A DNA stretch of 29,196 bases from a virus: the IMG/VR virus record IMGVR_UViG_3300009431_000737, positions 1 through 29,196 of that record; one strand, 5' to 3'. The notes below the pieces were generated by a model. That model searched no databases. It was not told where the DNA came from and worked only from the letters and a program-made list of their open reading frames with translations. A program made the position numbers and the translations under genes. The number at the start of each line of letters is the position of its first letter. Position 1 is the first letter of the stretch. Shown here piece by piece: positions 18,205-29,196 of this stretch.

Positions 18205-20079
18205 ATGTCGACGTATTACCAAGCGATATCCCTGGACGGCGGCACGGAGCGGATTGACGTCCCCGACGATCCGACCCTCGACATCACCGACGAGTTTTCG
18301 ATTGCCGCCTGGGTCGAATGTGGCTCCCAGGGGACCGTAGATACGATCGCCATGAAATGGTCCGGAACGACGCAGAGAAGCTGGTTTCTGCGTACCGCAT
18401 CGTATGGGTTTCGCAAGCTGGAGCTGGCTTTTACCGACAACGGGACGACGACCTCGGGCCACTGGAAGAACTGGGCGACTGCGGGGGATGTGCTGCCGAA
18501 TAGTGGCTGGGCGCACGTAGTGGTCACGTTCGCCGCAGGCTCGATCAGGATGTGGGTAAACGGAAATGAAAACACCGGGTGGTCAAAGGCCCATGACGAT
18601 CCGATTACGACCATCTACGCATCCACTTCCGACGTCCAGATCGGCGGCCAGGCCGGCCAGACCCGCACCTGGAATGGTGATATCTGCAACTACTCTATAT
18701 GGGACACGGAGGTCCTGTCGCCGAGCGACGCGGCGGCGCTCTGTAATGGCGGCGACAACCTGGACCCCAACGATCTGGCGCCGACGGGGGCGGCATCCTT
18801 GGTGTCTTCCTGGATCTGGAACGAGGAGCTGCCGCTGGTTCCAGGCGCAAATGACATCCCGGACAACACAGCGTCCAATGATGGTACAACGCAGGGTACT
18901 ATCACCAGCGGCGATGTGGTGGATAGTCCATGGGAGTTACAGGCAGCTCCGAGCTGCCTGTATGTCCCCGATGGATACGTGACGATCCCTGACGCCGCCT
19001 TCTATCCCGGACAGTACATTCGTGAGGGCGAAGACGATCCCACGGACGGATCCGACTCCACAACCAAGGGCCTGGTGGATCTGGCCTGCAACTCGAACTA
19101 CATCCATAAGCGCGTCGTGAAATCACATGTCCGCCAGGATCTCCAGTCCTACTCCGACCCCACGAAGGTCATCGTCACGACAGGAGGGAGCCCGATCCAC
19201 GTGGCCTCCTGGCGGATTGAACGGTTGCCTGTGGACCAGGGCCTCAGGGTCCGCTACGTGGCCAAGACGGCAGACGCCAACGCGGTACAGGTCCTGTGGA
19301 AGCTCTACGACTTCGACACGCACTTGACCTCCGTGACCGAAGAGGACACCTTCTCTGCCGTGGGCTACTCCGAGCGCACCGTGGAGTTCGACTCGTCCGG
19401 CCTGGCGACCTACCTGGCGTCGGTCGGGTATGACGGCCCGCATGTCCTGGAGCTGTGGGTGGCTGAAGAGGATGTCGGCGGGGTTGCGCACCTGAAGACG
19501 GTCCTGGCCGAGTCTACCGACGACGGCGAAAGCGAGGTCGAATCCGGGGAGCGGGACAGCGCCTACTGTCCTCAGTGCTGGGAATCCTGGCCAGCGGACA
19601 GCGCCTATTCCGTGGACCAGGTCAACATCCTGTCGGACAACGTGGCCGCCCTCCGAGCGGACAAGGCCTCCACCCTGATCGCGTTCTGTGACGATCTGCA
19701 GGACCTGACGCACCCCGCCTTCGAGTCGCAGTCGTCGTCGTCGGACTGGCAGGTCGTCGTCAAAGTGCCGATCGAGTATCAGCCGGGGGTGGCTGCCGTC
19801 GGCTTCGCTATCGCAGGGTTTCGCGTCGACAGCAGCGACCGCTTCCGCATCTATACCCGGGAGGAGGTCGACCAGGAGGGACTCGGGAACGTCTCCGAGA
19901 GACAGTTCTCCGGACTCCAGGGATCCTTCGACATCACCGACGCTGCCGACTGGGTGACGGGTTCGCTGCCTGTCAAGCCGACATCGGCGGCGAAAGGGGA
20001 GGACCTGGTCGTCGTCGAGTTCAGGGGCTCAGTGACCCGCGGGGTGACCATGGTCGCTCTGGAGATTTGGGAGGACTGA
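18205..20079 (+). CDS. Tail tip protein with LamG / concanavalin-like lectin domain
   Basis: 624 residues with GGGGGG before the ATG. Residues 1-165 match the LamG/concanavalin-A-like jelly roll pattern: ISLDGGTERIDVPDDPTLD, then FSIAAWVEC, a SGWAHVVVTFAAGSIRMWVNG segment and an IGGQAG...WNGDICNYSIWD ending, as in laminin-G type 3 domains. These bind carbohydrate or protein ligands. The rest is beta-rich, with a Cys pair YCPQC around residues 452-456. It is the best candidate for the receptor-binding protein. The domain call is strong; the receptor is unknown. Confidence 0.7.
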   Translation: MSTYYQAISLDGGTERIDVPDDPTLDITDEFSIAAWVECGSQGTVDTIAMKWSGTTQRSWFLRTASYGFRKLELAFTDNGTTTSGHWKNWATAGDVLPNSGWAHVVVTFAAGSIRMWVNGNENTGWSKAHDDPITTIYASTSDVQIGGQAGQTRTWNGDICNYSIWDTEVLSPSDAAALCNGGDNLDPNDLAPTGAASLVSSWIWNEELPLVPGANDIPDNTASNDGTTQGTITSGDVVDSPWELQAAPSCLYVPDGYVTIPDAAFYPGQYIREGEDDPTDGSDSTTKGLVDLACNSNYIHKRVVKSHVRQDLQSYSDPTKVIVTTGGSPIHVASWRIERLPVDQGLRVRYVAKTADANAVQVLWKLYDFDTHLTSVTEEDTFSAVGYSERTVEFDSSGLATYLASVGYDGPHVLELWVAEEDVGGVAHLKTVLAESTDDGESEVESGERDSAYCPQCWESWPADSAYSVDQVNILSDNVAALRADKASTLIAFCDDLQDLTHPAFESQSSSSDWQVVVKVPIEYQPGVAAVGFAIAGFRVDSSDRFRIYTREEVDQEGLGNVSERQFSGLQGSFDITDAADWVTGSLPVKPTSAAKGEDLVVVEFRGSVTRGVTMVALEIWED

Positions 20080-26740: not shown

Positions 26741-26814
26741 GCGACTGGCACGAGTGGGCGATGCTGGTCGCCCTGGGGATCGCCTTCGGCTTCGTCCTGG
26801 CCGGCGCGGTGTAG
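26737..26814 (+). CDS. 25-residue single-pass membrane micro-protein
   Basis: A GTG overlaps the previous stop (GTGA). The peptide is MSDWHEWAM followed by a run of hydrophobic and Gly residues and ends at TAG two bases before the next ATG. It is short but a clean single membrane helix, and the position leaves no slack. Such micro-proteins in phages can be holin-like, antiholin-like or regulators of membrane enzymes; which is not clear. Confidence 0.5.
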   Translation: MSDWHEWAMLVALGIAFGFVLAGAV

Positions 26815-26816
26815 GG

Positions 26817-27410
26817 ATGGGTCAGCTGCAGCTCACGCCCCATCGCGGCTCTGCGCGCAACTCCCGCCAGGCCTCCTCCAGGATGGACTGGGAGACGCCT
26901 CCCGAGTTCTTCGATCTGGTAAACCGCCATTACGGTCCCTTCGACCTCGACGCGGCCGCTCTTCCGAGCAATTCCCTCTGCCCAAGGTACCTGTCTCCGA
27001 GAGAGGACGCGCTTCAGTCCGAGTGGGGGCCCGTCCCGGCCGGCCGGCGCGGGCGTGACACGCGAGCGGCGCGTGTGTGGTGTAACCCCCCTTACGGGGA
27101 TCTGCTCGGCCGCTTCGTGGAGAAGGCCTGGCACGAGTGGTACCACCGCAACTGTACGGTCACGCTGCTGATTCCGCCGCGGACGGACACCTCCTGGTGG
27201 CATCGCTTCGTCCTGTACGCGTCGGACATCTGGTTCGTCCGCGGCCGCATCTCCTTCATTCAGGACGGCCAGCCATGCACCGGCAACACCTTCCCGTCCG
27301 TGCTGGTCCACTTCGGGCACCACGTCCGCTTTGGGGGCGGCGTCGATGTCGGCACATGGTGCCAGACGTGCGGTCGCCAATGCCATTGCGACAAAGGAGG
27401 TCTTTTATGA
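26817..27410 (+). CDS. dam: Phage DNA N6-adenine methyltransferase (Dam family)
   Basis: 197 residues. I use the ATG at 26817, just after the micro-protein stop, rather than the longer frame. Residues 24-50 (DWETPPEFFDLVNRHYGPFD, then LDAAA) and the catalytic NPPY at 90-93 in VWCNPPYG are the signature of phage N-6-adenine methyltransferases. The end holds a Cys/His cluster (WCQTCGRQCHC) that may bind zinc and is not part of the usual core. It methylates adenine in DNA to evade restriction or to time replication. The stop overlaps the next start (ATGA). Confidence 0.85.
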   Translation: MGQLQLTPHRGSARNSRQASSRMDWETPPEFFDLVNRHYGPFDLDAAALPSNSLCPRYLSPREDALQSEWGPVPAGRRGRDTRAARVWCNPPYGDLLGRFVEKAWHEWYHRNCTVTLLIPPRTDTSWWHRFVLYASDIWFVRGRISFIQDGQPCTGNTFPSVLVHFGHHVRFGGGVDVGTWCQTCGRQCHCDKGGLL

Positions 27411-28387
27411 ACCCCTGGACAGGCACCATTCAGCTCGGCGAGCAGTCGGAGAGAGTGACGGCGCTCTGCGAAGAGCTGATGCGGATCGGGTACTACCTGA
27501 GGCCTGGAGATACGTACAACGACTTCCTGCGGTACGTCGTAATGGCGGAGCAGGAGAACGCGCGGATCGCAGTAGACGGCCTCCCCGGGCCTCACACGAT
27601 GCAGACGCTCATGGCCCAGCCGGATCAGCCCCAACCCATCCTGGACAACACGGCCCGCGGACGTCGGCTGACGAACACCCTGGCTGGCATCTACGACCTC
27701 CGGCTGCGCCGCATGAAGCCGGAGTACCGGTCATCGTCCATAGCCGCCTGGGTTGCGATGGAGGCCGGAGATCGAGAAGAGTACATCATTCCATACGCCT
27801 GCGACGGCAGCGGCCGCCATGGCGCCACCTGCGGCCACGCTGCATGGCTGATAACGGAGTGGTGGTTCAACGGCATGAGTTCGGGTCGCACCCCAACCTG
27901 GCGCACCGGCCGGGGTCCGGCCGGCGGTGACCTGAGGTCCCGCTTCCTGCCTCTCCTGCCCTGTGCAGGGGAGGAGATCCGAGGCAAGGCCCACCGCGGG
28001 CTGCGGGAATACGTGGAGGAGTCCTACGTCGTCGGTGACCTGCGGGACATCTACGACCCCGCGACCTGCGGGGGCGTCGGCAAGGGAGAGCTCTACTACT
28101 GCCAGCGGAACAGCGGGCACATCGTCCTGGTCGTCGTGGCGCGGCCTGGCTGCGGGTTCGTGGATCCGCGTGTCCCGGGGATCCCCGCGCGGCTCGGGTG
28201 CTACCGCTGGGCCGCAGACGGCAGCAAGAAGACCAGGGGCACCCCCTGGACATGGAAGCGGATCAACGGGTCCGATATCGGCGAGTGGCGAGTATGGGAG
28301 ATGGCCCGCCTGACCGATGCCGGATGGCCGCCACCCATCGGACCGCTGTCCCCAGCCCTTCACCGCCCCCTCTTCCTGGAGGACTGA
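27407..28387 (+). CDS. Putative lysin: peptidoglycan-binding plus cysteine-peptidase-like
   Basis: 326 residues from an ATG with an ideal AAAGGAGG. Residues 16-70 (VTALCEELMRIGYY...VDGLPGPHTMQTLM) look like a peptidoglycan-binding type 1 repeat with an insert. Residues 110-300 carry Cys142 at the start of a helix (TCGHAAWLI), His238 in a strand (SGHIVLVVV) and Asp253 (GFVDPR), the Cys-His-Asp order of NlpC/P60 and CHAP-type cell-wall hydrolases. It would cut peptidoglycan for lysis. No signal peptide is seen. The fold call is from motif order only, and the location, away from the XhlA-like gene, is odd. Confidence 0.5.
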   Translation: MNPWTGTIQLGEQSERVTALCEELMRIGYYLRPGDTYNDFLRYVVMAEQENARIAVDGLPGPHTMQTLMAQPDQPQPILDNTARGRRLTNTLAGIYDLRLRRMKPEYRSSSIAAWVAMEAGDREEYIIPYACDGSGRHGATCGHAAWLITEWWFNGMSSGRTPTWRTGRGPAGGDLRSRFLPLLPCAGEEIRGKAHRGLREYVEESYVVGDLRDIYDPATCGGVGKGELYYCQRNSGHIVLVVVARPGCGFVDPRVPGIPARLGCYRWAADGSKKTRGTPWTWKRINGSDIGEWRVWEMARLTDAGWPPPIGPLSPALHRPLFLED

Positions 28388-28388
28388 G

Positions 28389-28742
28389 ATGGCAACGATG
28401 CTCATACAGCGCCCCAAGGTCATCTTCTGCGAAGGATGCGGCCGCCCGACCTCCGAGCCTGCCTCAGCTCCCGGTCCCCAGGGTGGTCGCATCTGCGTCG
28501 AGTGTTACGACCCGGCCCCCATCGTCATGGAGCAGGTGGACAAGCGCTTATGGGAAGCGGCCCTGTGGTGCGTCCAGGCGTTGCGAAAGTACGGGAACGC
28601 GGCCAATTGGGGTCCTGCGTCCGGATCCTCGTCCGAGGTGGAGAGGAAATTGCGCCGGTGGCAACCGCCCGGGCATGGCTACGACCCGGCTCGGCGGATG
28701 GTGGAGAAGTTCGACAAAGTTGCCGAGGAGGTAGGGAGATGA
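28389..28742 (+). CDS. Zinc-ribbon small protein
   Basis: 117 residues, with the start just after the previous stop. Two Cys pairs, CEGC (14-17) and CVEC (36-39), make a short zinc ribbon; the rest is helical and basic, with ALWCVQALRKYGNAANWGP resembling small phage proteins near replication genes. The long frame upstream of the ATG overlaps the lysin and is rejected. Its stop overlaps the next gene start (ATGA). It could bind DNA or a replication protein; function unknown. Confidence 0.55.
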   Translation: MATMLIQRPKVIFCEGCGRPTSEPASAPGPQGGRICVECYDPAPIVMEQVDKRLWEAALWCVQALRKYGNAANWGPASGSSSEVERKLRRWQPPGHGYDPARRMVEKFDKVAEEVGR

Positions 28743-29196
28743 AGCGACTGGAGTCCTGCAGATGGTGGTTCAACGACTACAGAACATCCACCGTGCGTCG
28801 CCGGTGCTCATTGCCCGCCCGCGGCCTGTACATGGACATCCTCATGCTGCTGTACAGCTCCCCGAGGCCTGGCTACGCCTGCGACACTGTTGGTGGCCGC
28901 CTGGTCTATCTGAGCATCGACGAAATCATGGCCGACGTAGGAGCATCCGGTGAGCGAGATCTCTTCGATGAGCTGACGAAGTGGGGCGGGCTCGTGTGGG
29001 ATGAGGGCTGCGAGGGCTGGTACAACGCCAAGGCTGCCGAGGTGGGCGGAAAGGAGCTCAGGTTCAGGGAGGGCTGTGCGGACAGTGGCCGCCGCGGCGG
29101 CCTCCGGAGGGGCAAGGTCAAGTCAAGAGCACAAGCTGAACCTGAAGGGTCGCTTGAAGGGTCGCTTGAAGGGTCGCTTGAAGGGTCGCTTGAAGG
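28739..29196 (+). CDS. Phage replication protein (DUF1376-like), runs off the window
   Basis: 152 residues visible, incomplete at the right edge. The start overlaps the zinc-ribbon stop (ATGA). PARGLYMDILMLLYSSPRPGY and a following LSIDEIMADVG segment resemble the winged-helix replication-organiser proteins of the DUF1376 type, where RGLYMDLL is characteristic. After a basic part (RRGGLRRGKVKSRAQ), the frame enters E-G-S-L repeats encoded by 12-bp units. Such proteins recruit the helicase at the origin. Because the gene continues, its C-terminal domain cannot be judged. Confidence 0.6.
   Translation, partial: MKRLESCRWWFNDYRTSTVRRRCSLPARGLYMDILMLLYSSPRPGYACDTVGGRLVYLSIDEIMADVGASGERDLFDELTKWGGLVWDEGCEGWYNAKAAEVGGKELRFREGCADSGRRGGLRRGKVKSRAQAEPEGSLEGSLEGSLEGSLE
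29144..29196 (+). repeat. 12-bp direct repeats inside the replication gene (iteron-like)
   Basis: The unit GAAGGGTCGCTT repeats four times without a mismatch (29144, 29156, 29168, 29180), and a fifth is cut by the window end. In frame it encodes E-G-S-L repeats. Repeats at this place in an initiator-type gene resemble the iterons in lambda O that form the replication origin. Confidence 0.8.

Follow-up and report, generated by a model that had tools for sequence, protein, structure and literature searches.

A 12-bp repeat, GAAGGGTCGCTT, runs head to tail within the last gene of the viral contig IMGVR_UViG_3300009431_000737 and reaches the end of the record. The question raised by this locus is whether the repeat serves as DNA, as a set of protein-binding sites, or as the peptide that it encodes. 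The window analysed is the whole of this record, 29,196 bases of about 65% GC; near its left end lie genes for the terminase large subunit and the portal. The reading favoured here, at a probability of roughly 0.7, is that the array would constitute intragenic iterons of a lambda-like origin, placed within the gene of the initiator.

The first-pass annotation had described four exact copies and a cut fifth. The four copies were confirmed on the plus strand at 29144–29155, 29156–29167, 29168–29179 and 29180–29191, and the record then closes with GAAGG, ending at 29196. Tandem Repeats Finder delimits the array at 29143–29196, with a period of 12, 4.5 copies, 100% match and a score of 108. The proposed iterons are in frame with the ATG at 28739 and encode EGSL four times plus E, which correspond to residues 136–152 of an open-ended reading frame; the frame-keeping E-G-S-L linker that had been claimed was found as such. 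The record is classed as linear and the periodic stretch of 54 bases runs to its end, so that the copy number of the array is not fixed by the window. Elsewhere in the window, no copy of the unit with zero or one mismatch was found, and two places, 14350 and 21817, match it with two mismatches. The exact doubled unit is absent from all other IMG/VR contigs searched. Cumulative GC skew simply rises to the contig end, and is uninformative on an origin there. Another 12-bp array at a contig end was observed in L005:1-110 (IMGVR_UViG_3300025849_003245), upstream of a large ORF of portal-like appearance, and contig breaks at such 12-bp arrays may be general.

Tandem Repeats Finder scores just one other array of the window higher, an unrelated 21-bp repeat at 1798–1884. 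It comprises 4.1 copies, and the ORF 1740–1916 reads EELAAKE heptads. This is a protein-level coiled-coil repeat, in contrast with the array at the other contig end.

The array-bearing gene occupies 28739–29196 on the plus strand, where the contig end truncates it after 152 residues. Its start codon overlaps the TGA stop of the preceding small gene (ATGA; 28389–28742, plus strand), which has no family match over the cut-off when scanned within the ORF 28317–28739. Upstream in the same region lies a DNA adenine methylase gene (Dam, PF05869, E 1.3e-28; 26754–27410, plus strand). For comparison, Rhizobium phage RHph_N28_2 has an annotated DNA methyltransferase a few genes upstream of its DUF1376 gene. 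Also upstream of the initiator-like gene, the product of 27407–28387 has a peptidoglycan-binding domain at its N-terminus and a C-terminal half without assignment. Other genes of the window include one for a glycosyltransferase family 1-like protein among phage genes (20666–22447; PF13692, E 5.8e-15), and one for a protein with a concanavalin A-like (Laminin_G_3) domain (18205–20079), for which a role in the tail or in capsid decoration is possible. Sequence searches for relatives of the neighbours of the initiator-like gene gave none.

The identity of the gene product was addressed with profiles and with structure prediction. No match was found in Pfam, PHROGs or NCBIfam (none in Pfam up to E 5). 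This includes the RepA_N plasmid initiators (PF06970), for which no sequence match appeared in Pfam up to E 5, and the curated DUF1376 model (PF07120), which gave no match over the cut-off. Searches of IMG/VR, GTDB genomes, and phage and plasmid records yielded no close relative. Weak matches to a DUF87 protein in Vibrio plasmids proved unrelated, and lysozyme matches at E 0.1 or worse were taken as chance. A first profile made from nine DUF1376 domains gave no signal for the window protein (E 0.14). A wide profile was then made of the domains of at least 90 residues from the 125 DUF1376-type genes presented below. With hmmsearch, the window protein ranked first with this profile (E 0.0011) among 280 sequences, namely 279 window ORFs and itself; the second was the same ORF, and the third, an unrelated ORF, had an E of 2.5. 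Alignment with hhalign covered residues 6–118 (P 3.2e-5) with a score of 31.2, to be compared with 18.5 for the best of 100 decoy ORFs and 25.4 for the best of 100 shuffles of the window protein. The comparison of profiles thus supports the window protein being a distant relative of the phage DUF1376 "primosomal" proteins. As the curated Pfam model fails, the gene is termed DUF1376-like rather than a DUF1376 member; in the wider sense of the term, there is significant similarity to the profile over the whole domain, and in the model a winged helix precedes the linker that bears the repeats.

A model was calculated with AlphaFold2 from an alignment with 39 rows of DUF1376-type proteins (mean pLDDT 83.6). 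The fold predicted from the single sequence without relatives (pLDDT 43.1) was set aside as useless. In the model, residues 8–96 (28760–29026) form a predicted winged-helix DNA-binding domain, with helices 8–16, 25–39, 60–66 and 73–82, strands 48–51 and 54–57, and a wing at residues 85–96. A long basic helix follows (residues 97–132, 29027–29134, plus strand like the domain) and runs into the linker, and the EGSL tail is modelled without structure. DUF1376 proteins lead the fold matches among viral structures, with three matches at E under 0.001, an agreement that is partly circular because the alignment behind the model was built from DUF1376-type proteins. Foldseek against the PDB returned no match under 0.001 for the window model. 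A second structure comparison with the PDB placed the N-terminal domains of initiators on top, with middling Z-scores of 5.8 to 6.9: 4pql (Z 6.9, r.m.s.d. 3.8 over 89 residues), 5kbj, described as a "Rep-DNA complex" (Z 6.5), 4pt7 (Z 6.3) and 4pta (Z 5.8). These four are presumably pSK41-type RepA proteins, that is, RepA_N plasmid initiators. The gene had been said to resemble a replication organiser. It has no library match, yet the resemblance is backed by the purpose-built DUF1376-type profile and the confident winged-helix model. Regarding a lambda-type intragenic origin, tandem direct repeats are present inside the gene, and the initiator role is drawn from the profile and the model.

A degenerate scan for EGSL-like repeats returned 9 contigs, most with the repeat in other reading frames or of unrelated appearance, one of them adjoining a portal-like gene. 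One contig (L003/L012) carried a DUF1376 gene and was the starting point of a survey. The survey gathered 220 DUF1376-type loci: two IMG/VR sets (80 kept of 592 and 80 kept of 231), 51 of 51 from GTDB genomes, seven phages, E. coli K-12 and L012. A gene was obtained from all 220 loci, and 125 were left after dropping 90% identical DNA. The L012 clade is a biased sample, as the L012 gene was found through its repeat; the YdaU-type sets (80 of 592 in IMG/VR; 51 in GTDB) were picked by protein alone. Tandem arrays were counted when they had a score of at least 40 and a period of at least 4.

The linkers were found to be rich in arrays, with 113 in 25.6 kb (4.42 per kb) in 76 of the 125 genes. Outside the gene, there were 74 in 534.0 kb (0.14 per kb; 49 of 125 loci). 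The domain-coding parts contain 34 arrays in 37.4 kb (32 of 125 genes) and the C-terminal parts 11 in 39.3 kb (8 of 125 genes). After thinning to 50% protein identity, an array was present in 19 of 23 linkers versus 18 of 420 outside windows of equal length; at 70% identity, the figures were 35 of 48 and 28 of 871. At the cut-off used, no linker array was detected in 49 of the 125 genes; E. coli K-12 ydaU from the cryptic prophage Rac (L011:5120-5977) is one of these 49 and, unlike many relatives, has no tandem array. The first-pass annotation had named random, unrelated linkers in relatives as the contrary outcome. What was found is that the peptides differ and the DNA repeats persist, though 49 of 125 genes are without an array. 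In the window gene, 405 bases precede the array, and in the relatives the linker arrays begin 318–381 bases into the gene; by alignment, the window domain has an insert of roughly 15 residues relative to these proteins.

The window array might instead be a protein-level repeat, a flexible EGSL linker that replication slippage would have expanded, the DNA itself having no function. From the window alone this is possible, because the period of 12 is in frame; the copies are identical, as in a recent slippage array, and the 21-bp units coding for EELAAKE heptads, also in this window, clearly repeat at the protein level. The relatives argue against this explanation. The commonest periods of their linker arrays are 11 (36 arrays) and 12 (26), and those of their domain arrays also 11 (21 arrays) and 12 (10). 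Since 11 is not a multiple of 3 and breaks the reading frame, the arrays are often out of frame. The autocorrelation of the linker bases peaks at a lag of 11 (0.403 versus 0.257 outside), with echoes at 22, 23 and 33. The spacing of one and the same motif is 11 bp in L125 and 12 bp in L124 and L128, which are relatives of L125. Moreover, motifs of the linkers recur exactly in the domain-coding parts: 10-mers common to both were found in 67 of 122 genes, more than in any of 200 synonymous shuffles preserving the protein and the codon use (mean 25.0, maximum 39). With 9-mers, the count was 83 of 122 genes versus 52.2 and 63 in 50 synonymous shuffles. The 473 shared 9-mers comprise 161 that keep the reading frame, 119 that are shifted to a different one and 193 that occur on the opposite strand, so that 312 differ in frame or strand. 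In L012, the motif is translated as EPPF within the linker and as TTLA within the domain. It is therefore the DNA word that is conserved as the peptide varies, given that the motif recurs across frames and strands, and beyond what synonymous shuffles produce. With this, a mere expansion of the linker peptide is considered unlikely. The guess that the repeats are iteron-like draws backing from these comparisons, as 11/12-bp linker arrays occur at the same place in relatives, often out of frame, with a motif reused across frames and strands.

Some DUF1376 linkers, those of L017, L018 and L012, have low-complexity peptides (NQEPRTK, QKPEARS and SLQSSVF) that arise incidentally from the translation of 7-bp DNA repeats in every frame. 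The idea of one iteron core common to the whole family was considered and dropped: enrichment of pentamers finds no motif common to all clades, and the iterons differ by clade.

The window unit itself resembles the repeats of some of the relatives only, the likeness being in brief GAACGGTCG-TT versus GAAGGGTCGCTT. On the other strand, it aligns with iterons from Pseudomonas and enterobacterial loci, as GAAGGGTCGCTTGAAGGGTCG against GAACGGTCG-TTGAACGGTCG (L183, L030), and it also aligns with AAGGGT-GGTTGAAGGGT in L125. The agreement was compared with that of permuted units. With domains and linkers together, 0 of 60 permuted units did as well, both in a group of 41 genes and in one of 83. With linkers alone, 3 of 400 (119 linkers) and 2 of 400 (46 linkers) did as well, and a marginal 42 of 1000 with the 22 linkers left after thinning to 50% identity. 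These figures are suggestive only of the window unit and the iterons of relatives being the same motif. A 12-bp in-frame array, TATAGTTGAAGG, is also present in L197, where it is translated as EGIV EGIV and precedes TCACCT repeats. In the winged-helix-coding part of the window gene, no second copy of the unit was found, and near matches are even fewer there than in the rest of the window. This missing domain copy counts against a full likeness of the window gene to the relatives.

The surroundings of the arrays in the relatives follow a common order. In all 30 genes having both kinds, an array with a period of 5–8 bp lies downstream of an array with a period of 10–13 bp; the units of the former include AGAAG, ATACAG, CTTCAGT, AAGCCAG and TCACCT. 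Between 60 and 120 nucleotides after the domain, the GC content is about 10 points under the mean of the locus (5 to 9 after thinning). It is in this tract that the gene melts most easily, and the tract has a strong purine/pyrimidine strand bias. Representatives of the 23 clusters at 50% identity were examined for their downstream neighbours; 3 had no suitable ORF, and 6 of the other 20 neighbours are DnaB, DnaC or DnaA-like according to Pfam. All five DUF1376 proteins tested are labelled primosomal by PHROGs. The lambda-like arrangement that had been claimed thus stands in part: iterons followed by an easily melted tract occur in the relatives, and the window itself ends within the array. On balance, the data incline towards a layout shared by DUF1376-type initiators of tailed phages and prophages, which would carry the origin in their own gene: a cluster of iterons in the winged-helix-coding part, a cluster of 11/12-bp repeats in the linker, then strand-biased repeats of 5–8 bp in the easiest-melting stretch. 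The motif would have drifted together with the protein, in any frame and on either strand, and the window would belong to an outlying branch in which only the cluster of the linker has been retained.

The repeats could also be sites for the protein of the same gene that serve in control (autorepression, copy control or incompatibility), the origin being elsewhere. Autoregulation also fits a winged helix that reads repeats in its own gene. Against this, the sites are about 400 bp inside the window gene rather than at a promoter, and in the relatives they are followed by the easily melted, strand-biased tract and, in 6 of 20 cases, by the DnaB, DnaC or DnaA-like neighbours. A purely regulatory function is thus judged quite improbable. 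An assembler circling a short repeat might have padded the contig end, whose last 54 bases are perfectly periodic, as at places where assembly graphs loop, so that the real array would be shorter or longer; this is very improbable, as such a loop requires a real tandem repeat, the arrays of relatives are real at the same place in long contigs and sequenced isolates, and an artefact would touch the copy number, not the presence of the array.

With the array taken as iterons, a mechanism can be proposed, modelled on the accounts of lambda O and pSK41 Rep (PMC7466680, PMC5703833). The protein would bind the repeats in its own gene, and these would mark the replication origin of the phage. The N-terminal winged helix would bind successive 12-bp sites, one about every helical turn. 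The bound molecules may stack along the DNA, straining and opening an easily melted tract close by; judging from the relatives, this tract is expected within about 100 bp downstream of the window array. The C-terminal part of the protein, past the contig end, or a neighbouring loader would bring the replicative helicase. The DNA of the array would also be translated as a floppy linker between two protein domains, so that its amino-acid sequence would matter little. Binding by the own protein, unwinding, helicase loading and origin activity at the window array are inferred.

For most uncultured phages, the replication origins are not known. If the layout holds, the origin would be readable from the sequence in hundreds of phages and prophages, with the initiator beside its cognate sites, and the recognition code of this winged-helix class would become testable. 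The odd low-complexity peptides in phage replication proteins would be by-products of DNA repeats, and DUF1376, a large and uncharacterised class, would gain a concrete proposed function.

The closest of the known systems are compared here. In lambda and Stx phages, the origin lies in the middle of the O gene, with iterons and an AT-rich tract, and the number of iterons changes the length of the protein (PMC7466680); the lambda iterons are about 20 bp long (PMC8022706). As with lambda O, the window has its repeats inside a putative initiator gene; unlike those of lambda, they are 12 bp long and head to tail, and the window protein has no match to O-type families in Pfam or PHROGs. Gene 18 of Salmonella phage L has six imprecise 11-bp repeats within the initiator gene, proposed as the origin (PMC8022706). 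They are annotated as a putative origin at positions 397–473 of the gene, and the window array starts at position 406 of its own. Tandem Repeats Finder detects two clusters in gene 18, with the unit TGTCCAACGGA, and then an AT-rich stretch. The protein is of a different family from that of the window, the PHROG "replication initiation O-like". Gene 38 of Bacillus phage SPP1 (oriL) contains direct repeats within the gene of the origin-binding protein, together with an AT-rich unwinding element (PMC6316719); the likeness to the window is one of layout as described. In pSK41 Rep, the N-terminal domain is a winged helix that binds four boxes situated midway along the rep gene itself, the part encoded by the origin is a linker, and Rep without this linker still rescues a plasmid that has a functional origin (PMC5703833). 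The window protein differs from it by middling Z-scores and no sequence match, and pSK41-type initiators belong to plasmids of Gram-positive hosts. The origins of PICIs are located after the gene, not inside it (PMC6092414).

The window gene is like the DUF1376-type proteins of the YdaU kind in its distant profile match, its winged helix, the position of its 11/12-bp array and, for some of them, the similarity of the unit; it is unlike them in failing the curated Pfam model and in having no cluster in the domain-coding part. In the open-access literature, no published description was found of repeats in DUF1376 genes or of a DUF1376-wide layout, which is new as far as searched; five papers listed there mention DUF1376, each a single time. 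Iterons inside an initiator gene are an already known kind of arrangement, represented by lambda, the Stx phages, SPP1 gene 38, phage L gene 18 and pSK41 rep, and the window is one more case.
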